In this document: piece by piece, positions 3,860-37,063 of the stretch | Numbering within the stretch: the first letter of the stretch is position 1 | How the letters are laid out: each line of letters opens with the position of its first letter | NCBI GenBank assembly: GCA_012735585.1 | Contig: JAAYGX010000040.1 | Coordinates: 1-40,149 of the forward strand | From: Tissierella sp. | Lineage (GTDB): Bacteria > Bacillota > Clostridia > Tissierellales > Tissierellaceae | Length of the DNA: 40,149 nucleotides | Reading direction: 5' to 3' | Position numbers and translations under genes: made by a program | The notes under the pieces: model-generated | Told to the model about the DNA's origin: nothing | Database searches by the model: none | Seen by the model: only the letters and a program-made list of their open reading frames with translations

Positions 3860-4879
3860 ATGAATTTAAAAAGAGTATTTAATATTTTAATCATAATCTT
3901 AGTTTTAATAAGTTCGGTCAATAATAATATCAGTTATTCAACTGAAAAAAACAAAGAGGATATCAATCAAAATCAGTTAATTAACAATCCTGATGGAATA
4001 AAGAAAGAAATAAATAATAGTGTAATAAATCTGGAAGAAACTCAAATAGATGATATAATTAAAGATTCAGGAGTTCGTAGCGAAAAAGATTTAGATGAAA
4101 CAATAGTAGAGACCCTTGAAATAACAGAATTTAATATAGATGGCTTACAATTAAGAGAAGGAATATCAAGTGATGAGGTATTAAGAATTAAGAGATTTCT
4201 TATAGCAAAAGGATATACTGATTTGGTAGAAAACTATTACTTTGATTCAAACACCAGGAATATTGTCATGGAATATCAAAGGAAGAATAGCTTAAATCCT
4301 GATGGAATTATCGGTCCAAATACCTTTAGTGTAATGAATGAAGATATGAAAACCAATTCAATTAGTATACCAGATATAGATTTAAATCTCCCAGAAAATG
4401 TTCCTGATAAAATTTGGATTCTAATAAATAAAGAAAGCAACACCCTATATCATTATAATAGTAGGAATTTAATTAATAAGTACCCAATAGCATCAGGAAA
4501 GACTCCTAGTCACACACCTGAAGGGAAATTTTCCATAATTGTAAAGTTTGTAAACCCATATTGGGGAGGTGCAGGTAGATATACTCCAATTAAAGGCGGT
4601 GCTCCCAACAATCCCTTAGGTAAAAGGTGGCTTGGATTAAATATTAAAGGTGGTGGCACCTATGGCATACATGGTAATGCAGATGTTTATAGTATAGGTA
4701 AGCATGTATCTCTTGGATGTATAAGAATGTTTAATGAAGATGTAGAGTTTTTATTTGATATAATCGATTATAATACACCTGTATGGATATTTGCCAGTGT
4801 AGCTGAATCTGTAGATACGGTGGAGGAAATTCTTGACTCATCATCAGAACCTGTTAAAGTTCAAGAGTTTTGGGAATAA
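3860..4879 (+). CDS. Secreted L,D-transpeptidase with peptidoglycan-binding domain
   Basis: 339 residues. A signal peptide or N-terminal anchor (1-27) is followed by a low-complexity acidic/Asn-rich linker. A peptidoglycan-binding domain spans about 98-160 and contains EYQRKNSLNPDGIIGPNT. The YkuD L,D-transpeptidase domain spans about 184-312, with the catalytic signature HGN at 271-273 and SLGCIRM with the nucleophile Cys287. It should form 3-3 cross-links or attach proteins to peptidoglycan outside the membrane. GGGGGA lies before the ATG. The next gene (cation efflux) starts 19 bases after its stop, so they are probably co-transcribed, although the functions are not obviously linked. Confidence 0.93.
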   Translation: MNLKRVFNILIIILVLISSVNNNISYSTEKNKEDINQNQLINNPDGIKKEINNSVINLEETQIDDIIKDSGVRSEKDLDETIVETLEITEFNIDGLQLREGISSDEVLRIKRFLIAKGYTDLVENYYFDSNTRNIVMEYQRKNSLNPDGIIGPNTFSVMNEDMKTNSISIPDIDLNLPENVPDKIWILINKESNTLYHYNSRNLINKYPIASGKTPSHTPEGKFSIIVKFVNPYWGGAGRYTPIKGGAPNNPLGKRWLGLNIKGGGTYGIHGNADVYSIGKHVSLGCIRMFNEDVEFLFDIIDYNTPVWIFASVAESVDTVEEILDSSSEPVKVQEFWE

Positions 4880-4898
4880 ATGAATAAGGAGGGATTAG

Positions 4899-5816
4899 AT
4901 GATAAAGCCAATCATAAAAAGGTTTATAAAAAACTATGAAATCATAGATGATAAAAATGTAAGAGAAGACTATGCAGTTTTATCTGGAGTATTGGGAATT
5001 ATATGTAATTTATTACTTTTTTTAATAAAGCTAGTAATAGGTCTTCTTATAAATAGTATAGCAGTTATATCAGATGCATTTAACAACCTTACGGATTTAG
5101 GTACATCTGTTGTTACCATATATGGAGCAAAACTTAGTAATATGCCACCGGATGATAATCATCCATATGGTCATGGGAGATTTGAATATGTGGCATCATT
5201 AGCTGTTTCTTTTATAATATTTGCAGTTGGACTTACGCTTTTAAGAAGTTCCTTTGAAAAAATCATAAGTCCAGAATCGGTTGAGTTCAATTGGCCTTTG
5301 ATGATCATCTTGCTTATATCAGTATCAATTAAAGTATGGATGTTTTCCTATAATAGATATATAGGAAATCTGATTAATTCAAGTATCAATAGGGCGATTG
5401 CACATGATAGTATCAATGATGCCTTAGCGACTTCGGGTGTTGTTATAGGAACAATAGTAGGAAAATATATTTCATTACCCATAGATGGTATTTTAGGACT
5501 TATCATATCAATATTAATCATCTATTCGGCATTTACTATAGCCAAGGATTCTGTAGATTTAATATTAGGTCCAGCCCCAGATCCTAAAATAATTGAGTCT
5601 ATAAACTCAATTGTTTTATCAGGAAAGGGTATTAGAGGTACCCATGATTTAATAGTACATGATTATGGTCCAGGTCGTATAAATGCTTCGATACATGCTG
5701 AAGTATCGGACGAGGCTAATATAGTAGAAATTCATAATGAAATAGATAAAATTGAGAAGAGGATCAAGAAAGAGCTAGGTATAAGTATTGTAATTCACAT
5801 GGATCCTATTGAATAA
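4899..5816 (+). CDS. Cation diffusion facilitator (CDF) metal efflux transporter
   Basis: 305 residues, normal for the CDF family. About six membrane segments lie between residues 30 and 215, followed by a cytoplasmic metal-binding domain. The family motif SDAFNNLTD is at 58-66 in the second helix, and the matching site HDSINDALAT at 169-178 in the fifth supplies the transport-site aspartates. The loop DDNHPYGHGRFEY (85-97) is typical of bacterial Zn/Mn/Fe exporters. It is expected to exchange divalent metal (Zn, Mn, Fe, Co or Cd) for protons. The start follows AAGGAGGG. The metal cannot be assigned from motifs alone. Confidence 0.92.
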   Translation: MIKPIIKRFIKNYEIIDDKNVREDYAVLSGVLGIICNLLLFLIKLVIGLLINSIAVISDAFNNLTDLGTSVVTIYGAKLSNMPPDDNHPYGHGRFEYVASLAVSFIIFAVGLTLLRSSFEKIISPESVEFNWPLMIILLISVSIKVWMFSYNRYIGNLINSSINRAIAHDSINDALATSGVVIGTIVGKYISLPIDGILGLIISILIIYSAFTIAKDSVDLILGPAPDPKIIESINSIVLSGKGIRGTHDLIVHDYGPGRINASIHAEVSDEANIVEIHNEIDKIEKRIKKELGISIVIHMDPIE

Positions 5817-7978: not shown

Positions 7979-8383
7979 ATGAAAAGGTTTTTAACGCTAG
8001 GATTAATACTTACTTTAGTATTAACTATTACGGTAGGATGTAGTACTACTGAGGAAGCAAAATACACTGATGGTACTTATACTGCCGAAAGTGAAGTTGA
8101 TGATAGAGGCTATAAAAGCGTTATAGAAATCGTAGTTGAAAATGGTGAAATTACATCAGTAGATTATGATGAATTCAATGAAGAAGGCGCTAGAAAATCA
8201 GAAGACGAAGCATATGCTGAAAATATGAAGGGCGTATCAGGAGTTGCTCCTGCAGAAGCATATGAGCAAATGGAAGAAGCACTTATTAAAAGACAAAATG
8301 TTGATGAAGTAGAATTAGTTTCAGGTGCAACTTCAAGTGCAGAAATGTTTAAAACTTTAGCTAAAGAAGCACTTAACGAATAA
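7979..8383 (+). CDS. FMN-binding (flavinylated) lipoprotein
   Basis: 134 residues. The lipoprotein signal ends ITVGC with the lipidated cysteine at 21. The remainder is an FMN_bind domain: KYTDGTYTAES, then a beta-rich section, then SGATSS (115-120). The last element is the recognition motif in which ApbE-type transferases attach FMN to the Ser/Thr. It should therefore be a small extracytoplasmic electron carrier. No apbE lies in the window. The nqrC product at 27.1 kb carries the same kind of motif, so both may use one flavin transferase. It is followed directly by a bidirectional terminator. The binding site AAGAGGTG precedes the ATG by 13 bases, somewhat far. Confidence 0.87.
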   Translation: MKRFLTLGLILTLVLTITVGCSTTEEAKYTDGTYTAESEVDDRGYKSVIEIVVENGEITSVDYDEFNEEGARKSEDEAYAENMKGVSGVAPAEAYEQMEEALIKRQNVDEVELVSGATSSAEMFKTLAKEALNE

Positions 8384-14878: not shown

Positions 14879-16441
14879 TTAATAATCTTCTTTTATAACC
14901 TTTTCAATAGTATTTACATCTCTATCAAAACTTAAAGGCTTAACAGCTGGTCCGTGAATTACTTTACCTTCATAAGTAAATCTAGAACCATGACATGGAC
15001 AGTCCCAAGAACGTTCGGCTTTGTTCCATTTCAATTCGCATCCCATATGAGTGCATGTAGTGTTAACTAAATGAAGTTTACCACTTTCATCCCTGTAAGC
15101 ACCAGTTTTATCTCCATCAAATTCTACAAAGATTGCATCACCAGGTTTTAAATCTATATCTTTTTCTGTAGAATGTAATTTACCTTCAAGTAGTTGACCT
15201 GCCACATCTGCATTTTGAACAAGGAAATTTTTTGAAGATGCCATTATGGTTTTACGTGATGGGTTGTAGACATCTGCCCATGGACTTGTTCCTTTAACTA
15301 TCAAATCCCTAAGAACAATAGATGAAGCCATACTATTGGTCATACCCCATTTTGCAAATCCAGTAGCTACATAAAGATTAGGAGTGTCAGAAGCATATTG
15401 ACCTACATAGGGAACACCATCTAAAGTTATACAATCCTGGGTTGACCATCGATAAGGAATATCTTCAATGGTAAACATACTTTTAGCAAAATCAAACAAT
15501 GCCTCATAATGTTCATTGGTGTTTTCTCCTTGGCCGGCCTTATGTTTTTCACCAACGACTAAAATTAGTTGTCCATTTTCCGTAGGATGACATCTTAATG
15601 AACGTGGTGGATCCTCTGCATTAATATACATTCCGCCTGGATATTTTTCCTGAGCCTTAACCCCCAAGATATATGATCTTTCAACATAAAGCCTTGCATA
15701 ATACATGGATTTTTTATTAAAGAAAGGATAATGGGTGGCTATAATTACCTTTTGGGCAGTTATTTTATTTCCTTCACTTGTATTGATAATGTATTTATCA
15801 TTATCTTTATCTAATTCTATAGCTCTGGTTTTTTCGTATATTTGTACTCCTTTATCATTGATAATCTTTGCTAAACTCAGTAAAAACTTTCTTGGGTGAA
15901 ATTGTGCTTGATTCCTAAATGCCATACCCGTTTTTATTTCAAAAGGGAAAGGCACATCTTCTATTAATTCAGCATCGATACCTAAGGATCTGGCTGCTTC
16001 AACTTCCATTTCTATCTCTTTTATATATTTATCTTCTTGGGTGTATATATAGGCAAGCTGTGATGCATAATCGCAATCAATATTATACTCGTTAGCAATT
16101 TTTTCAATTTGATGTATAGCTGATTCATTTGCTCGGGCATACTGTTGTGCTAATTCTCGGCCCATTTGATTAATTATCTTTTGATATATTAGACCATGTT
16201 GAGAAGTTAATTTGGCAGTCGTATGGGCAGTAGTAGATTGAACAATATTTTCTGCCTCTATAATAGCAATTTTAAATCCTTGTTTTTCCAATTGATAAGC
16301 AGATAAAATTCCTACCATACCACCGCCTATGATAGCAATATCCACACCTATATCTTCATCAAGTTCTTTATAGTTTGTACTTTCTGTGGAAGCAAGCCAG
16401 TAAGATTCAGGCATATTTTTAAATAAATTCACATCATTCAT
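14879..16441 (-). CDS. FAD-dependent oxidoreductase with C-terminal Rieske [2Fe-2S] domain
   Basis: 520 residues. The N-terminal DAO-type FAD domain has the Rossmann motif IAIIGGGMVG (35-44). The C-terminal Rieske domain has CTHMGC (from residue 463) and CPCHG (from 481): ligands Cys463, His465, Cys481 and His484, plus the cysteine pair 468/483 that forms the stabilising disulfide in bc1-type Rieske proteins. It resembles B. subtilis YhfW. No signal peptide is seen, so it is likely cytoplasmic. It presumably oxidises an amine or amino-acid-like substrate and passes electrons through the Rieske centre; the substrate is unknown. It is transcribed alone, divergently from the liv operon. Confidence 0.9.
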   Translation of the reverse strand: MNDVNLFKNMPESYWLASTESTNYKELDEDIGVDIAIIGGGMVGILSAYQLEKQGFKIAIIEAENIVQSTTAHTTAKLTSQHGLIYQKIINQMGRELAQQYARANESAIHQIEKIANEYNIDCDYASQLAYIYTQEDKYIKEIEMEVEAARSLGIDAELIEDVPFPFEIKTGMAFRNQAQFHPRKFLLSLAKIINDKGVQIYEKTRAIELDKDNDKYIINTSEGNKITAQKVIIATHYPFFNKKSMYYARLYVERSYILGVKAQEKYPGGMYINAEDPPRSLRCHPTENGQLILVVGEKHKAGQGENTNEHYEALFDFAKSMFTIEDIPYRWSTQDCITLDGVPYVGQYASDTPNLYVATGFAKWGMTNSMASSIVLRDLIVKGTSPWADVYNPSRKTIMASSKNFLVQNADVAGQLLEGKLHSTEKDIDLKPGDAIFVEFDGDKTGAYRDESGKLHLVNTTCTHMGCELKWNKAERSWDCPCHGSRFTYEGKVIHGPAVKPLSFDRDVNTIEKVIKEDY

Positions 16442-25973: not shown

Positions 25974-26020
25974 AAAACTACTGATAATATTGAGAAATTA
26001 AATATTATCAGTAGTTTTTT
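25974..26020 (+). terminator. Intrinsic terminator after the parvulin gene
   Basis: Perfect 18-bp stem: AAAACTACTGATAATATT (25974-25991) with AATATTATCAGTAGTTTT (26001-26018), 9-base loop, then TT. It separates the parvulin gene from the NQR operon. Confidence 0.93.
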
Positions 26021-26135
26021 CTTTTATGAGTTAATGGAATATTAAGTAAATAAAAGAATCAGAGATGATTAATAATTGCTAATTGTGGTATCAATATTAC
26101 AGGCATATTTACTAATTTCATTTGGAGGTGGTTTT

Positions 26136-27122
26136 TTGTTTGAAGAAAAATTATCAGCATTATTTATGAAACAAAAAATGATGAGGACAGTTATTATTTC
26201 TTTAGTTCCCATAATGATTGCTTCGATTTACTTCTTTGGTTGGAGATCCTTTACACTACTTTTGGTTGTAACAATCTTTGGTGTACTTACCGAGTATTTA
26301 TTTGAAAAAACAAGGAAGAAAAAAGTTTCTGAAGCAGTGATTGTAACCTGTATTTTATATACATTAACACTGCCACCTACAACCCCTTATTGGATAGCAG
26401 TTGTAGGTATAATATTTGGAGTATTCTTTGGAAAGGCAGTATTCGGGGGTTTCGGTAGAAATATCTACAATCCTGCCCTAGTGGCAAGGGCGTTTGTATA
26501 TATATCTTTTCCAGAGCCATTGACTATAGCATGGTCTAAAGTAGCTTTAGGATTTCCAGGAGGTTTCGGTACATATTTAACAAAAGGAATAGATGCAATG
26601 TCCCAACCAACACCTATGCTTTTATTTAGGGATACTGGTGAGATGGTACCAAATATTAATCTCCTAATAGGGAATGTAGCTGGATCTTTAGGGGAAACTA
26701 GTGCTATTTTAATCCTATTGGCAGGTATCTACTTAGTTTATAAGAAAGTTGCATCATGGGAGATTATGGCAGGTTCATTTATAGGATTTATAAGCTTGAG
26801 TACTATTTTATACCTAACAAATAATCCTTCTATCCCAAATCCTTTATATGGAGTTTTAGCAGGTGGTTTTCTATTTGGTACAATTTTTATGGCTACGGAT
26901 CCTATATCATCACCTAAAACTAAAGAAGCAAAATGGGTCTTTGGTTTCCTGGTTGGCATAATTACAGTAATTATTAGAGGATACGCTCTTTTTGCAGGGG
27001 GAATGATGTTTGCTATATTGATTGCTAATACATTTGCACCACTAATGGATGAAGGAGTCAAGGCATATAAGAATTATAAAAAAGAACAAAAGGCAGCAAA
27101 AAGTCAGGGGGTAGAAATATGA
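26136..27122 (+). CDS. nqrB: NQR/Rnf complex membrane subunit B (NqrB/RnfD family)
   Basis: 328 residues, nine or ten membrane helices. NQR2/RnfD family hallmarks: FGGFGRNIYNPALVARAF and the C-terminal ATDPISSPKTKEAKWVFG. It anchors FMN and ion translocation in the complex. The usual flavinylation site reads SGAT or SxAT; here the equivalent position is SQPTP (in GIDAMSQPTPMLLF), which keeps the threonine but has proline in place of alanine. The start is TTG at 26136 after GGAGGTGG; an earlier TTG at 26076 lacks a binding site. It overlaps nqrC by 4 bases. It is the first gene: neither nqrA nor rnfC lies upstream. Called nqr because of the NqrF gene at the end; the length alone would also fit RnfD. 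Confidence 0.88.
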   Translation: MFEEKLSALFMKQKMMRTVIISLVPIMIASIYFFGWRSFTLLLVVTIFGVLTEYLFEKTRKKKVSEAVIVTCILYTLTLPPTTPYWIAVVGIIFGVFFGKAVFGGFGRNIYNPALVARAFVYISFPEPLTIAWSKVALGFPGGFGTYLTKGIDAMSQPTPMLLFRDTGEMVPNINLLIGNVAGSLGETSAILILLAGIYLVYKKVASWEIMAGSFIGFISLSTILYLTNNPSIPNPLYGVLAGGFLFGTIFMATDPISSPKTKEAKWVFGFLVGIITVIIRGYALFAGGMMFAILIANTFAPLMDEGVKAYKNYKKEQKAAKSQGVEI

Positions 27123-27724
27123 AAAAGAAATCATTCCTCTATCCAATAATTTTTATGTCTGCAATCACCGCTATATTTACATTTGTTCTAGCTTACCTAA
27201 ACTATAGTACGGCAGAAAGAATTGACTTCTTACAGGATATAGAATTAAAAAAGAAAATTTTATATGTATTTGATATACCTATACCATCTGATGTTCCTGA
27301 GGAAATAGATCAAGTATTCAACCAGTTTATAGAGGAAGATGACTCTGTAGAGCCACCTATATTCTATACTGTAGAAAATGGTGAAAAAACAGGATATGCA
27401 ATACCGGCATCAGGACCGGGGCTATGGGGAGGTATCGATGCTTATGTAGGAATATCCGCAGACTTTTCAACTATATTAGGTCTAGAGTTTATCTCACATG
27501 AAGAAACCCCGGGGCTAGGAGGACGAATTTCAGATATGGAATTCTTAGAACAATTTAGGGACTTAGATATATCCAATTCAAGTGACAGAAGCTATATCGT
27601 ATTTAGACCAGCCTCTGGAGGCAATGTTGATGCTATTTCCGGTGCCACACTTACATCACAATCAGTTAGGGACTTATTAAACGTTGACTTGGAAGATTTT
27701 CTAAAGGAAAGAAGGGGTGATTAG
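27119..27724 (+). CDS. nqrC: NQR/Rnf complex FMN-binding subunit C (NqrC/RnfG family)
   Basis: 201 residues. One N-terminal membrane helix (about 8-28) and an extracytoplasmic FMN_bind domain. GPGLWGGIDAYVGI and EETPGLGGRI are typical. The covalent FMN attachment motif SGATLTS lies near residue 180 in DAISGATLTSQSVRDLL. It relays electrons on the outer face of the complex. It starts with ATGA overlapping the nqrB stop and ends two bases before nqrD, so the operon is tightly coupled. An ApbE flavin transferase is required but is not in the window. Confidence 0.93.
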   Translation: MKKKSFLYPIIFMSAITAIFTFVLAYLNYSTAERIDFLQDIELKKKILYVFDIPIPSDVPEEIDQVFNQFIEEDDSVEPPIFYTVENGEKTGYAIPASGPGLWGGIDAYVGISADFSTILGLEFISHEETPGLGGRISDMEFLEQFRDLDISNSSDRSYIVFRPASGGNVDAISGATLTSQSVRDLLNVDLEDFLKERRGD

Positions 27725-27726
27725 TA

Positions 27727-28335
27727 ATGGCTAAACACAGTGCAAAGAAGATATTTAGACTAGGTATATTAGACGAGAATCCAGTTTTGATACAGATCAT
27801 AGGCATATGTTCTGCCCTTGCTGTTACCAATCTAATGATGAACTCATTGATTATGGGATTGGCATTAACATTTGTTACTGGGATATCTTCACTTACTATA
27901 TCTATTATTAGATTATATACACCAAAACACGTACGGATGATGATTCAAGTATTGATCATTGCAGCCTATGTAATTATTGTAGATATATTTTTAAAGGCTT
28001 ATATGCCTGAGATGAGTAAGGCATTGGGACCATATGTAGGATTGATAATTACCAACTGTATCATCATGGGTAGAGCAGAAGCATATGCTCAAATAAATCC
28101 ACCAATTCCTTCGCTACTTGATGGGATTGCAGCAGGTCTTGGATATACAATTGTATTATTAGCAATTGCATTTTTTAGGGAATTAATGGGCTTTGGAACT
28201 ATTTTTGGATTCCAAATATTAGGAGACTGGTGGACTCCTTGGACCATTATGGTTATGCCACCTGCAGCGTTTTTCTTTTTAGCTATATTTATATGGATAT
28301 TTAACAGCAAGAGAGAAGGGGAGGTGACCAAATAA
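27727..28335 (+). CDS. nqrD: NQR/Rnf complex membrane subunit D (NqrD/RnfE family)
   Basis: 202 residues, six membrane helices. Begins MAKHSAKKIFRLGILDENPV, with the family block ICSALAVTNLMMNS, whose cysteine is one ligand of the membrane [2Fe-2S] cluster, and IITNCIIMGRAEAYA, with the second. Together with NqrE it forms the inverted-repeat pair that holds the cluster between the two proteins and passes electrons across the membrane. The stop overlaps the nqrE start (TAATG). Confidence 0.94.
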   Translation: MAKHSAKKIFRLGILDENPVLIQIIGICSALAVTNLMMNSLIMGLALTFVTGISSLTISIIRLYTPKHVRMMIQVLIIAAYVIIVDIFLKAYMPEMSKALGPYVGLIITNCIIMGRAEAYAQINPPIPSLLDGIAAGLGYTIVLLAIAFFRELMGFGTIFGFQILGDWWTPWTIMVMPPAAFFFLAIFIWIFNSKREGEVTK

Positions 28336-28925
28336 TGTTAGAGATTAGCCCTTTTGTCATATTTATTGCATCAATATTTACAAATAACATGATACTTTCG
28401 AATTTCCTGGGAATGTGTTCATTTATAGCAGTATCAAAGGAGATTCCCACCGCATTTGGTCTAGGGCAGGCGGTCACTATTGTACTTGCCATTACATCAA
28501 TATTTAACTATTTACTTTATGAATATGTTTTGATTCCATTAGGATTAGAATATTTAAGATTCATAGTGTTTATAGTAAGTATAGCAGCATCTGTACAACT
28601 TTTAGAGATGGTAATGGAAAGATTTTTACCAAATCTATACTATGCACTAGGTATATTTTTACCTTTAATAACAGTAAATTGTGCAATACTTGGCGTATCT
28701 TTATTTATGATTATTCGTGAGTATTCTTTTATACAGTCTGTGGCATTCAGTATAGGTTCTGGAATTGGTTGGACATTGGCTATAGTAGCCATGGCAGGTA
28801 TTAGGAAAAGACTGGAAACTGCCCCCATACCTAAAGGCCTGGAAGGCCCGGGTATTACCTTGATAATAACTGGACTGATGGCAATGGCTTTTATAGGTTT
28901 CTCAGGCATCGTCCAGATTCAATAG
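28335..28925 (+). CDS. nqrE: NQR/Rnf complex membrane subunit E (NqrE/RnfA family)
   Basis: 196 residues, six membrane helices in the opposite topology to NqrD. ILSNFLGMCSFIAVSKEI and LITVNCAILGVSLF supply the two cysteines that complete the intersubunit [2Fe-2S] site. All four cysteines expected across D and E are therefore present. GGGGAGGTG precedes the ATG, inside the end of nqrD. The final gene nqrF starts 10 bases after its stop. Confidence 0.94.
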   Translation: MLEISPFVIFIASIFTNNMILSNFLGMCSFIAVSKEIPTAFGLGQAVTIVLAITSIFNYLLYEYVLIPLGLEYLRFIVFIVSIAASVQLLEMVMERFLPNLYYALGIFLPLITVNCAILGVSLFMIIREYSFIQSVAFSIGSGIGWTLAIVAMAGIRKRLETAPIPKGLEGPGITLIITGLMAMAFIGFSGIVQIQ

Positions 28926-28935
28926 GAGGGGTAAT

Positions 28936-30033
28936 ATGAATACTATCGTAATGACAACCATAGCATTAACACTAATTTCAGCAGCCTTTGCACTTCTATT
29001 AACCATAGCAGATAGAACCGTAGGGAATTATGGGGAAGTAAAACTAACTATCAATGATGATAATGAATATATAGTCGAAGGCGGTAGCAGCCTTTTGTCG
29101 ACTCTAATAGAAGAGAAAGTATTTATCCCTTCTGCTTGTGGTGGTAAAGGTACCTGTGGCTATTGTAAAGTTAAAGTACATGAAGGAGGAGGGCCAGTAC
29201 TGGCAACGGAAACACCCTTCATGACGAAGGAAGAACTTGAAGATGATGTACGACTATCCTGTCAGTGTAAAGTCAAGCAAGATATAAAAATAGAAATACC
29301 GGAAGAACTATTTAATGTTAAGGAATACGAAGCAACTGTTGAGTCTATTATAGATTTGACGACGGTAATAAAACTCCTTAGAATAAGACTTCCAGAAGGA
29401 CAAGAGATGTCTTTCAAAGCAGGGCAATATGTTCAATTGAAAGCTCCTTTATATGAAGGCAATAGCGAAGAAGTATATAGAGCATACTCCATCGCATCTT
29501 CACCACTGGAAAAGGGATATATTGATTTAGTCATAGGCTATGTACCAGAGGGTGTAGCCACAACGTATGTGCATCAACATCTTAAAGAAGGTGACGAAAT
29601 CCATATAAATGGGCCATATGGTGATTTCTATTATCAAGATAATGATAGAGAAATGGTCATGGTAGCAGTAGGTACAGGAGTAGCTCCAGTCCTATCCATA
29701 CTTAATTATATGAAGTCAATGGATATTCAAAGAAAAGCAAGATTTTACTTTGGAGCAAAGACACCAGATGATTTATTTATGCTAGATTACTTTAAAGAAC
29801 TAGAAGAGACCTTATCTGATTTTAAATTTATACCATGTTTATCTAGAGTAGATGAAAAGAGTGACTGGGATGGATTTAGAGGAAGGGTCAACAACGCACT
29901 AGATCAGTATATCGAAGATGGAGATAATAAAGAAGGATACCTATGTGGTAATGAACCTATGATAAACTCAGTTGTAGAATCCTTAACTAAAAAAGGTATC
30001 CCAGAGGAATTAATTTACTTTGATAAATTTTAA
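28936..30033 (+). CDS. nqrF: NADH-oxidising subunit NqrF (2Fe-2S and FAD domains)
   Basis: 365 residues. One N-terminal membrane helix (about 3-24). A plant-type [2Fe-2S] ferredoxin domain follows with Cys68, Cys74, Cys77 and Cys109 (motif ACGGKGTCGYC). The FAD domain has RAYSIAS at 182-188 and GPYGDFY at 226-232, and the NADH domain has VGTGVAP at 245-251 and LCGNEPMI near the end. This is NqrF architecture, not RnfB (which would have 4Fe-4S ferredoxin repeats). It takes electrons from NADH in the cytoplasm. It is slightly shorter than the ~408 residues of proteobacterial NqrF. It is the last gene of the operon; neither nqrA nor rnfC follows. Confidence 0.92.
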   Translation: MNTIVMTTIALTLISAAFALLLTIADRTVGNYGEVKLTINDDNEYIVEGGSSLLSTLIEEKVFIPSACGGKGTCGYCKVKVHEGGGPVLATETPFMTKEELEDDVRLSCQCKVKQDIKIEIPEELFNVKEYEATVESIIDLTTVIKLLRIRLPEGQEMSFKAGQYVQLKAPLYEGNSEEVYRAYSIASSPLEKGYIDLVIGYVPEGVATTYVHQHLKEGDEIHINGPYGDFYYQDNDREMVMVAVGTGVAPVLSILNYMKSMDIQRKARFYFGAKTPDDLFMLDYFKELEETLSDFKFIPCLSRVDEKSDWDGFRGRVNNALDQYIEDGDNKEGYLCGNEPMINSVVESLTKKGIPEELIYFDKF

Positions 30034-30111: not shown

Positions 30112-30131
30112 AATATTATGAGAGAGACTTG

Positions 30132-30174
30132 ATAACGCAATTAAGTATAATTATACTTAGTTGTGTTATTTTTT
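30132..30174 (+). terminator. Intrinsic terminator of the nqr operon
   Basis: Stem ATAACGCAATTAAGTATA with TATACTTAGTTGTGTTAT (two wobble or mismatched pairs), very small loop, then TTTTT. Confidence 0.85.
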
Positions 30175-30357: not shown

Positions 30358-31923
30358 ATGATGCACAAAAGTAAAAATACTTTATACACGATTCTTACAA
30401 TAATTATGCTGTTAGGTGTGCTGCCACACAGCGTCAATGCTTCAGATACAGATATTGTTGTGGATAATGAAAAACCATTACTTGAATATGCCTATGTTGA
30501 AGGTGGTATGCTGAGATTGACTATATCAGACAATATAGAATTAGATTCACGTCCTATATACTTCAAGGCCGATAGGGAATTAAGATATTATTATCTAGAT
30601 ATTGATGACTATTATTATGAGTACGAAGGAAGATTTAGAAGGGATAGATATTATGAGATAGAGGTAGAAGTACCTTCTAAGGTTTCTGTAACCCTTAGAG
30701 ACAAAGCAGGAAACGAAAGTACCTATAGTCTAAATATTAAAGAAGACAATGCTCCAGTTACAAAACAAATACCTATATTTATTATAGAGAGATTATCAAA
30801 ACTTAAACAATCTGTAGTAGATACCTTTGAAGGATTTGATAATATATTTGAAGTGGAATATGGAAAGTTAATCCACGCCATTAGTATCTATGATGAAATC
30901 ATTAGTGATAACTACAGACACTACAATAAGAATGAAATAAAATTCAAAGTAAGCGGCCTGTCCATGGATAGGGAAGGAAATATTAAACTGGACAAGTATG
31001 GCATATTTAAAGTAACCATGACCCATAGCAAGGATAAAACCTTTGAAGAAATCGCCTATTTACTGATTAAGCCTGACTGGAGAAATCCTGATGATAGAAG
31101 ACTTCCTGTAAATATTAGCCCTTATATCGTATATAGTGACAAGATAAAAGTAGCTGACTACTTCAGATACGATGATGAAATTGTAACAGGAAAAAAAAGC
31201 AAAAGCAAGGTAGATACATCATATATGCTAGTCTATAACGAAGACATTGAAAGTTTAGTAACCATGAGTGATGCCATTACACTTGAGCTAAATAAACCTT
31301 ATAATTTAAGTGTTTTAAACTTTGAGGACAACTCTATGCAAGAATTTTATATAATGAGACAGGAGAAGTCAAAGACAAAAAGTAAAAGCTTTTCAGACGT
31401 AGATAAAAACCATTGGGCAAGTAAGGATATCAACTCCCTTGTATCAAAAGGACTTTTATCGGGATATTCCAACGGTACATTTGAACCATCTGGAAATATT
31501 ACAGTAAAAGAATTTATGACTATCTTAAGCAGATACATAGCAACATCTCCCAATATAGCAAAACCCGTAATAGGAGATGTAACAACGCCTGTGTCTTATG
31601 GAACTTGGGGTTATATAGAGACTAAATCCATATTAGATAGGTTAACTGATACCAACTTATATAGGTTTGGTTATAGGGACTTAGATCGACTAATCACCAG
31701 AGAAGAGGTAGCATTTTTAATAGACAGCACACTGGAGTTGGGTATACCATACAATCCTAATATAAATAATCGCCCTAGAGATATAGCCCTATCAATATAT
31801 AAGTCTGAGGTTGAAAAATTAGTAGACCTAGGATTTATATCGGGATATCCAGATGGAAACTTTAAACCATATAACAATATAACAAGAGCAGAAGTAGCAG
31901 CACTGTTTGCTAAAATGAAATAA
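30358..31923 (+). CDS. Secreted protein with three S-layer homology (SLH) domains
   Basis: 521 residues. Signal peptide about 1-28 (NASDT at the cleavage region). A Tyr-rich region (about 60-110) resembles a bacterial Ig-like domain, ending VTLRDKAGNEST. A middle part has no recognised family. Three SLH domains fill residues about 345-521: FSDVDKNHWASKDINSLVSKG with GTFEPSGNITVKEF, a degenerate one around WGYIETKSILDRL, and DLGFISGYPDGNFKP with NITRAEVAALFAKM. SLH domains bind pyruvylated secondary cell-wall polymer, so it is displayed on the surface. The ATG pair follows GGGAAGGAG. It precedes a giant secreted helical protein with which it may form the cell envelope layer. Confidence 0.88.
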   Translation: MMHKSKNTLYTILTIIMLLGVLPHSVNASDTDIVVDNEKPLLEYAYVEGGMLRLTISDNIELDSRPIYFKADRELRYYYLDIDDYYYEYEGRFRRDRYYEIEVEVPSKVSVTLRDKAGNESTYSLNIKEDNAPVTKQIPIFIIERLSKLKQSVVDTFEGFDNIFEVEYGKLIHAISIYDEIISDNYRHYNKNEIKFKVSGLSMDREGNIKLDKYGIFKVTMTHSKDKTFEEIAYLLIKPDWRNPDDRRLPVNISPYIVYSDKIKVADYFRYDDEIVTGKKSKSKVDTSYMLVYNEDIESLVTMSDAITLELNKPYNLSVLNFEDNSMQEFYIMRQEKSKTKSKSFSDVDKNHWASKDINSLVSKGLLSGYSNGTFEPSGNITVKEFMTILSRYIATSPNIAKPVIGDVTTPVSYGTWGYIETKSILDRLTDTNLYRFGYRDLDRLITREEVAFLIDSTLELGIPYNPNINNRPRDIALSIYKSEVEKLVDLGFISGYPDGNFKPYNNITRAEVAALFAKMK

Positions 31924-32128: not shown

Positions 32129-35100
32129 GTGAAGGAATACAATTTAGATAGTTTAAAAAAGCAAAGATTTAGAATCAAGGATGCCATGAGAAGAGGAATA
32201 TGTTTACTATTGGCATTGATTATGATTTTCCCGGCAGGGGTTTTTGCGGCGGAGGATGACGCAATCTGGAATGACTATAAAAGTCAATTAAAAACACACT
32301 TATTAAATCAAAATGAAAAAGAATATGTGATTACCTATAAGGGGAGTCAAGCAGATAGTAGTTATTTTGCAGAAACAAAAGCGAAAGAGCTATTTGACCA
32401 AGTTATGAAAGAGATACCAGTCAAAAATGGTAGCTTAAATATTAAATCGAAGGCGATATTGCCAGTATGGGAAGGAGAAACCCTTAAGTCCAAAAGACAT
32501 ATCCTTACTTACTATAACTCAAAGGCAGATTTAGATAAAATAGACAAGGTGCTAGAAAGTGCCTTTATAGATATTGTCAGTAATTATGATACAGATATAG
32601 ATCGTGTGAATGAAGCCATTAAGTATGTAAAAAAAGGCGGAACATTAGGTTTAAGCGATGTTGATGGAGCTACTGATAAAATATATGATACCGATGGGAA
32701 CATGAATACCCAGGTCAGTGAGCGTGTGTATGGGATTATTTTCTCAATGTTACTGGATAAGTTGGGATATAAGAATAGTGCCAATAATGATTTAACAAAC
32801 ATGGTAACAATTTTAGGTACTGATCATAAAATAAATGTTATAAATGGCAGTGTTACACCTCTGATGAGTACAACAGCAACAAAAGCTCAAATAGACTATG
32901 AAATAGGACTTGCTATAAATGAAATCAATAATTCTCAGTCAATAGATGAGCTTAAAACCCTGGCTAATGGAATAGAGAGTGGTCTAACAATCACAAAGCT
33001 AAATCAAATCAAGAATAAGATATCGGAAATTGAGAAAGAAATTGAGAGATATGAAGATAAATATGATGTATTATTAAATACAGCAGTTAAAGCGGGGATT
33101 AATGATTTAACGGTAAGATTTAAAGCTTTAGTGGATGCAAGAACTGATTTTTTAACTAGTTTAAATACTGAAAAAGTCTTTATAGCAACGAAAACCGTAG
33201 AAAATGCAGAGGCAAGTAAAACGACGGCTAATGCAACCATTGCCTATGATGCAGTAGAGAGCTTGGTTAGTGATGGGGCTGATAAAACTGCTCTAATAGA
33301 TAGAATTAAAGCTGTAGAAGCATCTATAATAGCAGCAGATAATGCTCAAAAAGCTGTAATAGCTGCTACCAAAGCAGTCGTGGATGCAGAAACTGGTGTA
33401 AATCGATACTTCAACGGACAAATCAGCACTGAAGATATAGAAACTTTGATTGCTGAAGCATATGGTATGGTAAATAAAGATGAAGTGGATGCGACAACTA
33501 AGGCTGATTTAACTACTAAGCTTGAGGAAGTAAAAACAAGAAAAGATAAAATAGAAGAGGTTATCGAAGCTGTAGTAGCAATGGAAGAGTTATTTGATGA
33601 AGATGATATAGATGATATATTGTCTATTGTTGACAAGGGCGATAGTGGCTATACAAATACTACTACCATAGGCTATTTTAATGCTGTAAATGAAGGTAGG
33701 GATAATAATGCTATTGGAAGTACTTTAAGTACTAGAATAACAGAAATAGATAAAGTATTAGCAGCTATAGAAGCAGCAAAAGGAATGGTAAAAGAAGCGG
33801 ACATTAAAACAGCTAGAGCTGTTGTTAAGAAGATTGGTACTAAATTTATTGAAATTAAAAATTTGCTGGACACCTATATCGATAAGAAAGAAGAAGAATT
33901 AGTAGAAGGTGAACCAGATAGGCTGATAGCGGTTGCCAAAGAGGCGATACAAGAGGCTTATAAGCTGCTCATGGAAGATGAAGCACCATTTAACGATAAA
34001 TCTACTTCAATAAAAGTAGCGGATGCCATTAAAAATGCAAAAACACAAAGAGGTAAAGTTAAAGATTCATTAGAGAAGATAAAGATGGACAGTGCAATAG
34101 GTGCCATGGAAGCAACGCAAAAGGCTAAAGATGCAGTAGCTTTGGTAATGGTAACTGAATTAAGAAAAGACTACAATAACGCAGACAAGTTAGTGTCAGC
34201 AATAAGCGATACCACATCCTTCGAATATATAGAAGCTATAGGCAGTGGAGATGCTAGGGAAGGAAACTTTGTTAAGATTAAAGAAAAGCTTCGCGGACAA
34301 TTAGATCCCTTAGGAGCGATAATAGGTCAATCAGAAAATGAAAAAGCGGCTAGAGATGCAGTAACTAAAGTAGAAAATAGCTTAAAAGAAAAGGATTATG
34401 ATGCGGCTGAAATAGCAATAAACAAGCCATTGATTGATGTTAATGTGAAGGGTGATTTAGAAGAGAGATTAAAGGTTGTAAAGACTGTAATTGATGCTAC
34501 AAATGCAGTAATCGCAGCAGAAAAAGATCCAGGTGCAGCAGGCCTCGGAGAAATACAAATTAAAATTGATGCTATTGTAGCTAAAAGATATATTGAAATC
34601 CAATTGACACTTCAAGGCAGATTGGATCAAGTTACAAATTCGCAAAATGCCATAAGAGCAGTAGAAGCTGCAGAGGCTGCTTTGGAGCAATATTTATCAA
34701 ATCAAAGTGAAGCTAACAAGAATAACTTAAATACTAAAATTAGTACTACTGGACCTCTAATAGAAGCTGTGAAGGACTCTAAGGTAAAAAAAGATTTAGA
34801 GAAAAGGATCGGGGCTGTAGTAAGTGCTCGTGATGCCAATCTTTCTTTTGAAGCGGTTGACAAGATCCTATCTGAAATAGAGGCCAAACTACAATCTATA
34901 CTGATAATTAGTGGAACTCCTATAACGGATCATTCAAGCTTTGATAATAGTATTGAAACTTTAGAAAGTGATATAACTGAAGCAGAAGCTCTTGTAAAAT
35001 TAGTTAAAGATAAAACCCAGTCAGCTAGTTTAAAAACTAGAATAACAAATATTAAAAATGCCAAAGATGCTGGCAGCTTAATCGTAACTGCTGAAAAAAG

Positions 35101-37063
35101 CCACCCAACTTATGTGAAAAAGGAAATTACAGCTGCGGAAAAAGCTGTAGCAAAAGTAGCAGACAGTGGAATATACAAAGATATTAAAGTAAATTTTGCA
35201 TCAAGAGTAGATTTTTTAAATGTAGAATTTAATAAAAAAGTTGAATATGATAATGCTAAAAAATTAGTAGACAAGGCATTCGAAACTATGAAAGAAAGTG
35301 ATATCAACAAAGCAATCGACTACGTATCAAAAATGCAAGATTCTGTAGATAAAAAGAAATTCAATGAGGGGGATTCATCAGTTACTCCAAAGATTAATGG
35401 TATTCAGAACATTGTAGATAAGCTTGCAGGAACAGTAAGAGATAAGATCAACAACGCAATTCCACTAGTAGCAGTCAATGACAAAACCGCTGCAAAAGCA
35501 GTGACAGATGCCAAGAAGTCATTTGAATCATTCAAAAAAATCGTTGGTAATGCTGATAATAAACTGGTAGTTATGCAAAAATCAGAAGATCAAGTGGTGA
35601 AATATAAGGAGGCTTATGATGGAGTTGGCGGGCATATACCACATTACAATAGCAGTTTAGGAGTTTTAGATAAGTCCTTGAATATCTGGAAGCTAATGAC
35701 AGCAGCTGAAAAGTCTAAGAAAAAAGAAGATGTTGAAGCGATAAGAAAGATACATCTTGTAGGCATGACCTTTGAAGATATAAAAACTGTAATCGGAAGT
35801 GTTGATCCAGTTGATATGACAGTAAAAGTGGATTCATATAAATTGATAGCAGATGGTTTAGAAAATAAACAGAAAGAGCTGGAGGACTATCAAAGTTCTG
35901 AAGCTGATAGACAAGAGCAGGCTCAACTTGCTATTGATAAAGCAAAAGTAGTTCTAAATAATTATGCTACTAAAACTGTCGGTGAGGATGTATATGATAA
36001 AAAGGCAAGAAAAGATGGAGTAAGAACAAATTTAACCATAGAGATAAGTACTGCTAGGATAGCAATTGAAGGTATAAAGGATGCAGCTGTTAAAAAGACT
36101 AAATTAGCTGATCTTGCTAAGATAGAGGTCTATAGGGATGCTATAGTTGCTGTAGGTAATGCTTTAGCATATCCTACTCAAGCTACCTACAAAGCTGCTG
36201 AATCGGCAGTAAAAAAGTGCAGCTATGACTATGGTTTGGTTTTAGCTGAACTGCAAAGCGAACTTAGAGACATAAACGATATATTAGATAGTTATGCAAA
36301 GGCTGAGAAGGCTACAAAGCTTGTAGAAATAGCAGAGCAGACAAAACTTCAAAGTGATGTAGACAAAGCAAGAATGGATGTAAATATGTTGGATGATAGT
36401 AATCCAGCTAAAAAACTACTTGGCGAGAGACTTGATGCTGTTCAAAAATTCATCGATACAAAAGATGATGTGGATAGGGATGCAACCACTGCCGCAAGGG
36501 GATTGCTGGAAAAAGCACTGATCAACATAACTCAGGCTAGTAGATATTTTGACCTTACAACGCTTACGGATCAACAAATACTGGAAGCTTATGCACTCCT
36601 TAGAGGAAGGGAAGGGGTGGATGAGGAAGGTAAGCCTATAATAGAAGCAGGTGCTAGGCACTTTATTAGGGATGCAAAGTCTGAGATTAATAAGATATCG
36701 GATATCCTTCTTAAGGAAACACTGAATAAGCTAATAATCCAAAGAGAAGAAGAACTTGAGAGTGCATTGCATGAGATACACATCAAAGCATCTGAGAATC
36801 TATTGAGCATTGCAAATGTGGCTGCAAACGAAAGACTTGCCTTGGCAACAGATCGAAGCAAGGTGGAATGTGGAGAATGGACAGAAGAAAAATGGACTGA
36901 TGAAAGACTAAAGCTGGAACAACAGGCGAGAAGAGCCATTGAGGAAGCTAGAAATACAATAGATGAGATGTTTTTGCCAGGATTTATGACACAAAAGGAT
37001 AATTTAATGAGATGGCTAAATGAGATTATCGGTGATTTGGCTAATGAAAATGCAGAAGACTGA
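32129..37063 (+). CDS. Giant secreted helical-repeat surface protein (ended by in-frame TGA)
   Basis: 1,644 residues to the TGA. Start GTG at 32129, ten bases after AAGGAGGT. Signal peptide about 19-41 (LLLALIMIFPAGVFA, cleavage before AEDD). Residues 42-250 form a unique domain that may be a degenerate transglutaminase-like fold (weak guess). From about 250 onward the protein is made of roughly 70-80-residue Ala/Lys/Asp-rich helical repeats of the form AVxxAE...DVDxARxxVxxL.DS..K..L..RLxAV; the clearest copy is DKARMDVNMLDD ... LGERLDAVQKFID near residue 1420. The TGA at 37061-37063 interrupts the same frame that stays open to 37897. No SLH or LPxTG anchor is visible in this part. It probably forms a cell-surface or adhesin layer with the preceding SLH protein. 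Confidence 0.85.
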   Translation: MKEYNLDSLKKQRFRIKDAMRRGICLLLALIMIFPAGVFAAEDDAIWNDYKSQLKTHLLNQNEKEYVITYKGSQADSSYFAETKAKELFDQVMKEIPVKNGSLNIKSKAILPVWEGETLKSKRHILTYYNSKADLDKIDKVLESAFIDIVSNYDTDIDRVNEAIKYVKKGGTLGLSDVDGATDKIYDTDGNMNTQVSERVYGIIFSMLLDKLGYKNSANNDLTNMVTILGTDHKINVINGSVTPLMSTTATKAQIDYEIGLAINEINNSQSIDELKTLANGIESGLTITKLNQIKNKISEIEKEIERYEDKYDVLLNTAVKAGINDLTVRFKALVDARTDFLTSLNTEKVFIATKTVENAEASKTTANATIAYDAVESLVSDGADKTALIDRIKAVEASIIAADNAQKAVIAATKAVVDAETGVNRYFNGQISTEDIETLIAEAYGMVNKDEVDATTKADLTTKLEEVKTRKDKIEEVIEAVVAMEELFDEDDIDDILSIVDKGDSGYTNTTTIGYFNAVNEGRDNNAIGSTLSTRITEIDKVLAAIEAAKGMVKEADIKTARAVVKKIGTKFIEIKNLLDTYIDKKEEELVEGEPDRLIAVAKEAIQEAYKLLMEDEAPFNDKSTSIKVADAIKNAKTQRGKVKDSLEKIKMDSAIGAMEATQKAKDAVALVMVTELRKDYNNADKLVSAISDTTSFEYIEAIGSGDAREGNFVKIKEKLRGQLDPLGAIIGQSENEKAARDAVTKVENSLKEKDYDAAEIAINKPLIDVNVKGDLEERLKVVKTVIDATNAVIAAEKDPGAAGLGEIQIKIDAIVAKRYIEIQLTLQGRLDQVTNSQNAIRAVEAAEAALEQYLSNQSEANKNNLNTKISTTGPLIEAVKDSKVKKDLEKRIGAVVSARDANLSFEAVDKILSEIEAKLQSILIISGTPITDHSSFDNSIETLESDITEAEALVKLVKDKTQSASLKTRITNIKNAKDAGSLIVTAEKSHPTYVKKEITAAEKAVAKVADSGIYKDIKVNFASRVDFLNVEFNKKVEYDNAKKLVDKAFETMKESDINKAIDYVSKMQDSVDKKKFNEGDSSVTPKINGIQNIVDKLAGTVRDKINNAIPLVAVNDKTAAKAVTDAKKSFESFKKIVGNADNKLVVMQKSEDQVVKYKEAYDGVGGHIPHYNSSLGVLDKSLNIWKLMTAAEKSKKKEDVEAIRKIHLVGMTFEDIKTVIGSVDPVDMTVKVDSYKLIADGLENKQKELEDYQSSEADRQEQAQLAIDKAKVVLNNYATKTVGEDVYDKKARKDGVRTNLTIEISTARIAIEGIKDAAVKKTKLADLAKIEVYRDAIVAVGNALAYPTQATYKAAESAVKKCSYDYGLVLAELQSELRDINDILDSYAKAEKATKLVEIAEQTKLQSDVDKARMDVNMLDDSNPAKKLLGERLDAVQKFIDTKDDVDRDATTAARGLLEKALINITQASRYFDLTTLTDQQILEAYALLRGREGVDEEGKPIIEAGARHFIRDAKSEINKISDILLKETLNKLIIQREEELESALHEIHIKASENLLSIANVAANERLALATDRSKVECGEWTEEKWTDERLKLEQQARRAIEEARNTIDEMFLPGFMTQKDNLMRWLNEIIGDLANENAED

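Follow-up and report, generated by a model that had tools for sequence, protein, structure and literature searches.

Where would the electrons go in an operon for a putative NQR-type sodium pump that lacks nqrA? The question is raised by a 40,149-nucleotide stretch of DNA from Tissierella sp. (Clostridia, Tissierellaceae; GenBank assembly GCA_012735585.1, contig JAAYGX010000040.1), hereafter the window, which is contig C224 of a 3.0-Mb draft genome (G000, 97.3% complete). Five plus-strand genes, B-C-D-E-F, span 26136-30033 and are joined by overlaps of 1-4 bases or gaps of 2-10. A sequence-only reading of the window had taken them for an NQR-type operon without nqrA, rnfC or rnfB. With moderate confidence, we favor the reading that they encode a five-subunit NADH-driven ion pump of the RNF/NQR superfamily, which would be NQR-like up to the last cofactor and would deliver its electrons to an acceptor other than a prenylquinone. 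The genes and the hairpins enclosing them are as follows.

25974-26018, plus strand: terminator hairpin of 18 bp followed by a T-run, upstream of the operon (-20 kcal/mol, z -7.07, 0/200 shuffles as stable)
26136-27122, plus strand: B, NqrB/RnfD-type membrane subunit, 328 aa (PF03116)
27119-27724, plus strand: C, NqrC/RnfG-type subunit, 201 aa, with a DAISGAT flavinylation-type site (FMN_bind)
27727-28335, plus strand: D, NqrD-type membrane subunit, cluster-ligand positions Cys28 and Cys111 (Rnf-Nqr)
28335-28925, plus strand: E, NqrE-type membrane subunit, cluster-ligand positions Cys28 and Cys116 (Rnf-Nqr)
28936-30033, plus strand: F, NqrF-type NADH dehydrogenase subunit, 365 aa (Fer2, FAD_binding_6 and NAD_binding_1)
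30131-30170, plus strand: terminator hairpin of 18 bp with a T-run, downstream of the operon (-21.3 kcal/mol, z -7.12, 0/200 shuffles as stable)

Open reading frames (ORFs) and family profiles confirmed the five coupled genes, and the strong terminators described at both ends are real hairpins, although a terminator consensus scan found 3 sites where 5.3 are expected and missed the upstream one. B starts with a TTG after GGAGGTGG at 26136, the start also taken in the sequence-only reading, and its longest ORF begins at 26076. In F, plant-type 2Fe-2S, FAD and NAD domains are preceded by an N-terminal hydrophobic segment; the domains and the profile score agree with the NqrF layout that had been proposed, with NADH entering through this protein. 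The insert that the printed NQR rows carry ahead of the RxYS motif is missing from F. NCBIfam profile scores were compared with their curated cut-offs. D and F lean clearly towards NQR: D scored 248 bits for PRK09292 nqrD (cut-off 235), 241 for TIGR01939 nqrD (cut-off 245) and 187 for an RsxE subfamily, barely above its cut-off of 184, and F scored 282 bits for nqrF, slightly under the cut-off of 295. E leans slightly towards NQR (nqrE 239 bits, cut-off 248; rnfA 223 bits, cut-off 229). B and C lie in between: B reached 250 bits for nqrB (cut-off 414) and 239 for rnfD, above its cut-off of 207, and C reached 89.6 bits for rnfG and 86 for nqrC, both under cut-off. The description of B and C as Rnf-sized was borne out.

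Homologs were searched in a family sample of 28 genomes and an evenly drawn class sample of 147 genomes, each including the window's own, as well as in a species-wide scan of one genome per species (84,980 species). The scan yielded at least 493 confirmed relatives, of which the best 80 loci were read and are called named relatives here. ORFs and homology queries agree that the operon contains no nqrA, rnfC or rnfB, none of which was matched within the window, and a sixth gene concealed at either end was not found among ORFs, hairpins, neighboring loci or NqrA, RnfC and RnfB queries. No nqrA scored above cut-off in any of the 28 family genomes; the separate copy elsewhere in the genome that the sequence-only reading had named as contrary evidence is thus not seen in G000, where the weak nqrA matches fall within its two rnfC genes. 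Likewise, nqrA was not matched at E ≤ 1e-30 in the 147 class-sample genomes, and four NqrA queries matched nothing in the window, the family loci or the best 80 named loci, while finding NqrA in 8/8 control NQR loci (four being the queries' own). The RnfC queries found RnfC in 6/6 control RNF loci, one being the query's own, and in the loci searched they matched only 79 residues in L148, encoded on the strand opposite to B and about 3 kb away from it; RnfB queries matched short ferredoxin stretches in five loci. A separate RNF is present: rnfC is above cut-off in 28/28 family genomes, and G000 carries a complete rnfCDGEAB on contig C218. RnfG in the window's genus has tandem FMN_bind domains in one frame, two in G000 (L079 6203-7282, contig C218) and in G010 (C145 1717-2472) and three in G009 (C53 12083-13255); the other family genomes listed have one.

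The cofactor-ligand positions of NQR were compared in an alignment of 39 five-gene, 8 NQR and 11 RNF rows. The over-long E frame of L186 was left out of the E site counts (7 NQR rows), and L192, whose B has 258 aa, was kept and is the source of a lone Ile at the FMN Thr and a lone His at Glu144. Both cluster Cys of D, both of E, the four cluster Cys of F and the FMN Thr of C and of B are kept in 39/39 five-gene rows. At the riboflavin ligands of NqrB named in the relevant passages of Kishikawa 2022 and Hau 2023, Asn200 and Asn203 are kept in 39/39 rows, Thr162 is Thr in 30 and Ser in 9, and Asp346 is Asp in 33 and Glu in 6; the NQR rows vary in the same way. The flavin transferase ApbE is present in G000 and in 26/28 family genomes. 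Because the ligand positions are kept and ApbE is present, the full NQR wire, return path through B included, seems intact at the level of sequence. Electrons would pass from NADH to the FAD and 2Fe-2S of F, then to the 2Fe-2S bound by two Cys each of D and E, to the covalent FMN of C at the outer face, and back through the covalent FMN of B to the riboflavin of B near the cytoplasmic face. From this riboflavin they would exit on the cytoplasmic side, to a carrier or peripheral reductase encoded by a separate gene. Ion transport would be coupled as in NQR and RNF, and the pumped ion is probably Na+. A small FMN_bind protein, lipoprotein-like by eye, lies near the only ApbE match of G000 (L203 1476-1817 on contig C107; ApbE at 4508-5590).

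The exit itself differs from that of NQR. In passages describing published structures (PMC9325719, PMC10643135, PMC12174285), quinone and inhibitors are placed next to the N-terminal segment of NqrB, and residues 34-54 of this segment additionally anchor NqrA; for RnfD, the passage available describes an N-terminal arm that is buried in RnfC. Neither element has a counterpart in the five-gene B. This B has 13-19 residues ahead of the first-helix motif in 26/39 rows and 7-10 in 3, and the window's B has 15 counted from 26136 or 35 from the longest ORF. The corresponding number is 56-57 in 6/8 NQR rows (85 in L185; 11 in L192, with its shortened B) and 20-37 in RNF rows. An SPHI/APHI-type segment occurs in most of the RNF rows printed and in none of the five-gene rows printed. 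The quinone-contact residue Phe159 is Phe in 0/39 five-gene rows versus 6/8 NQR rows. Moreover, UbiA-family prenyltransferases (PF01040) were detected in 0/28 family genomes, 22 of which are at least 90% complete and at most 5% contaminated, and in 14/14 control genomes; in the class sample, 54/147 genomes have a UbiA protein. PF01040 is the family of MenA, MqnP and UbiA. Since UbiA is absent from 28/28 genomes, a prenylquinone acceptor appears unlikely in the window's family unless scavenged. The window also encodes an FAD-type oxidoreductase with, by eye, a C-terminal Rieske motif (14879-16441), which is odd for a genome without UbiA.

Several observations weigh against the favored reading. 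Ten of the 39 five-gene B rows have an apparent 24-76 residues ahead of the first-helix motif, which probably reflects start-codon choice. Gly141 of NqrB, which is Gly in 1/39 five-gene and 5/8 NQR rows, was dropped as a quinone marker and is weak evidence because Leu stands there in 3/8 NQR rows, all three from Bacteroidota. In the window's B, the residue preceding the FMN Thr is Pro, whereas Ala or Ser stands there in most rows. An in-frame TAA occurs in the F gene of G008, and no conserved redox gene lies beside the operon. One of the five class-sample genomes with the F gene (G109) has a UbiA protein, and quinone scavenging or an unknown prenyltransferase may still provide a quinone in the family.

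The G109 case would suit an ordinary NADH:(mena)quinone oxidoreductase that works without NqrA and binds its quinone at B, as would recent structures with ubiquinone in NqrB, no cofactor in NqrA and no redox role for NqrA, as passages of PMC10643135 and PMC12174285 describe them. Given these structures, the absence of NqrA alone does not exclude a quinone, which corrects the sequence-only reading, where an acceptor other than the standard NqrA-bound quinone had been offered as one alternative. That the acceptor is probably not an ordinary quinone stands on stronger ground, namely the missing N-terminal pocket segment of B, with Phe159 in none of the 39 rows, together with the absence of UbiA from the family. 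The same two findings counter its suggestion of menaquinone at NqrB, and an ordinary quinone reductase is in our view very improbable.

Phylogenetic trees were built for D/E (37 of the 58 aligned loci), B (33 rows) and F (25 rows plus one outgroup), with the NQR row L186 outside all trees and L192 outside the B tree. The B tree comprises three groups, five-gene (99/98), NQR (100/100) and RNF (100/99). The D/E tree was rooted by the paralogy of D and E. In it, five-gene D (21 rows, 99/95) adjoins NqrD (7 rows) with a joint support of 100/97, five-gene E (99/95) adjoins NqrE with 96/70, and RNF falls outside; the RNF rows are grouped among themselves, with 99/97 in E and weaker support in D (89/77). 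The two forms of F group separately in the F tree, which was used for that grouping alone, its outgroup being single and distant with long branches that meet. With this sampling, a separate clan that shares NqrF with NQR is well supported. The trees of the subunits against NQR and Rnf that the sequence-only reading had proposed thus set B, D and E apart from both, and its alternative of a chimera on an ordinary Rnf core is contradicted, as B, D and E fall outside the RNF rows. A sister relationship of the five-gene clan to NQR is preferred but not proven. In approximately unbiased (AU) tests, a grouping of five-gene with RNF was not rejected (D, p 0.111; E, p 0.532), and for E the tree so constrained is 0.83 log units better than the free tree; a grouping of NQR with RNF was not rejected either (D, p 0.131; E, p 0.398).

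These results also bear on the proposal that the five-gene system is an evolutionary intermediate between RNF and NQR. The separate clan in B, D and E, its place next to NQR in the paralog-rooted D/E tree and the profile scores between the two families are in line with it, but the other rootings are not rejected (AU p 0.11-0.53). In addition, NqrA is derived from RnfC in the passages of Reyes-Prieto 2014 available, so a form without NqrA or RnfC would need a loss and would not be the missing step. We regard the proposal as improbable.

The five-gene unit is conserved well beyond the window. In the family sample, the F gene is present in 19/28 genomes and a B gene of the operon type in 20/28; in the six-frame search, where the F match is split in two, none of these F genes reached the nqrF cut-off. 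The order B-C-D-E-F occurs in 18/19 family loci fetched; in the remaining one (G011), the contig ends within D, after B and C. Among the best 80 named relatives, B is followed by C-D-E-F in 74, including two where a contig end truncates B, and the other six are cut by contig edges; with a stricter cut, B is found in 73 named loci, and 58 have at least 1.5 kb on either side of the operon. The sharing of the gene order, which the sequence-only reading had proposed to check, is thus extensive, with the limit that family and named loci overlap (several have identical coordinates and identities) and the counts are not additive. Among the matches listed, the closest named relatives by F belong to Tissierellia, for example Gudongella and Tissierella. 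In the class sample, the F gene is found at E ≤ 1e-80 in 5/147 genomes, own included, and three of the five belong to other orders. A megaplasmid of Ilyobacter polytropus (Fusobacteriota) also encodes the same five genes.

No neighboring gene and no co-occurring flavoprotein explains the acceptor. Apart from the operon itself, no gene is common across lineages in the best 80 named loci, where neighbors are conserved only lineage-wide. In the window, the operon is flanked by a PpiC-type isomerase upstream and an SLH-domain protein downstream (30358-31923), both on the plus strand, and a 1644-aa protein that is, by eye, secreted and repetitive lies close to the latter (32129-37063). In 16 of the 19 F-bearing family loci, the gene next to F belongs to one cluster, absent from the window, of which the one member scanned is a RelA/SpoT-domain protein, and in 11 loci a membrane protein of about 585 aa is encoded shortly downstream; neither resembles an electron partner. 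Five of the best 80 named loci, from an Alkaliphilus-like group, have a ferredoxin/Fe-hydrogenase-like protein immediately upstream of B, which was rejected as a general partner because of its rarity. This protein is represented by L141 2816-4090 (cluster with L169, L174, L181 and L182), and the one scanned has 4Fe-4S, Fe-hydrogenase C-terminal and RnfB-type FeS domains.

Electrons might instead leave on the outside, in a pump-linked extracytoplasmic reduction in which the FMN of C donates to secreted flavoprotein reductases or flavinylated lipoproteins. Large FMN_bind proteins (frames of 380 aa or more other than RnfG and NqrC, compiled by hand) are present in 13/20 operon-positive versus 1/8 operon-negative family genomes (Fisher p 0.033, uncorrected for kinship). 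Two of four scanned examples combine FMN_bind with FAD_binding_2, but the other two are FMN_bind alone and FMN_bind with Peripla_BP_2. G000 has two FMN_bind proteins that are lipoprotein-like by eye, the one near ApbE and one in the window (7979-8383). The latter is small, has an SGATSS motif and resembles the PplA-type flavinylated lipoproteins. However, the three genomes of the window's genus have no large FMN_bind protein, and G010 (98% complete) and G022 (88%) have the operon and no FMN_bind match beyond RnfG and NqrC. The association being weak and several operon-positive genomes lacking them, large FMN_bind proteins were rejected as the acceptor. The extracytoplasmic flavoprotein suggested in the sequence-only reading may thus be an acceptor, though not a universal one. 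With the return path in B kept in 39/39 rows, extracytoplasmic flavoproteins fed from C seem to us an unlikely type of acceptor.

An output module could also be supplied in trans by an RnfC-family protein. One candidate in G000 is a full-length RnfC, carrying FMN and Fe-S domains, whose gene stands alone outside any rnf operon (L076 5859-7199, contig C39). This protein is 78% identical to a copy in G027 (L077 7320-8642), and the two are 57-58% identical to the operon RnfC. G000 also has PrdC, a proline-reductase-associated, RnfC-like protein (TIGR04481, 628 bits; L210 1641-2939, contig C59), whose presence suggests D-proline reduction. In counts made by hand, however, rnfC without a nearby PF03116 gene occurs in just 3/20 operon-positive genomes, and PrdC-like matches (about 187-220 bits for rnfC) in 7/20 operon-positive and 5/8 operon-negative ones. 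Both candidates were rejected, as their distribution does not track the operon, and B has no equivalent of the RnfD arm reported to lie buried in RnfC; supply in trans by this family has, in our judgment, little probability. A carrier or reductase on the cytoplasmic side, as in the favored reading, is ranked first among the acceptor types because the return path through B is kept, and is put forward tentatively.

The layout itself is already known. Passages of Goker 2014 (PMC4148951) describe NqrBCDEF without NqrA in T. thermarum and T. lettingae and call the other reaction partner unknown. Those of Manzoor 2018 (PMC5924567) describe the same for C. ultunense and propose that Rnf and NQR work in series and that the acceptor is more negative than quinone. 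These nqrBCDEF clusters of C. ultunense and Pseudothermotoga lettingae/thermarum resemble the present operon in their five genes, gene order, lack of nqrA and separate Rnf, and no layout difference was found in the parts of these papers available; for Pseudothermotoga, the likeness rests on the published description. L116, the locus of C. ultunense DSM 10521, is a homologous operon, with identities of 73/52/73/77/68% in B/C/D/E/F. The absence of nqrA was thus correctly observed in the sequence-only reading, and its outline had been published. The passages on these clusters in PMC5924567 and PMC4148951 do not deal with the missing quinone segment of B, quinone synthesis or distribution, and the literature search found no title or abstract on the missing segment or quinone absence for the nqrBCDEF variant. 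A search for published remarks on a missing nqrA yielded no paper that appears to concern this variant. As far as these searches go, the distribution, the clan status and the quinone argument are additions. In the passages available, Reyes-Prieto 2014 reports Firmicutes with rnfCDGEB and without nqr (Clostridium species, A. woodii), and a Fusibacter paper lists NqrB.

Compared with Na+-NQR (nqrABCDEF; V. cholerae from PDB, with Klebsiella, Ruegeria, Prevotella and others fetched), the five-gene system shares the B-F order, the NqrF-type input module and the internal redox-ligand positions, but lacks NqrA, the NqrB N-terminal quinone segment and the NqrF insert, forms a separate clan and has a C of 196-231 aa versus 224-309. 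With RNF (rnfCDGEAB), it shares a core B-E homologous to RnfD-G-E-A and the Rnf lengths of B and C; it differs by the absence of RnfC and RnfB, an NqrF-type protein in their place and its separate clan. The two-gene NQR/RNF-like systems, as described in passages of Meheust 2021 (PMC8238504), also have an NqrB/RnfD-type protein, NAD(P)H input and an FMN_bind partner, but consist of two subunits only, with the membrane domain fused to an NAD domain, whereas the five-gene system encodes B and F separately and has D and E as well.

In summary, the five-gene system may represent a third kind of redox pump in the RNF/NQR superfamily, for which we see about even chances, with the full NQR wire leading to a bare riboflavin in B, a dedicated non-quinone acceptor in trans, and ion export. 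It is frequent in Tissierellia and also present in other Clostridia and one Fusobacteriota species. As it has neither NqrA nor the NqrB N-terminus but keeps the remainder of the wire, it offers a natural test of the roles of these two elements. RNF is the redox pump usually attributed to fermenting clostridia. If the reading is true, a second NADH-oxidizing pump in apparently quinone-less cells would add an energy-conserving step after RNF, implying an acceptor that is as yet unknown.

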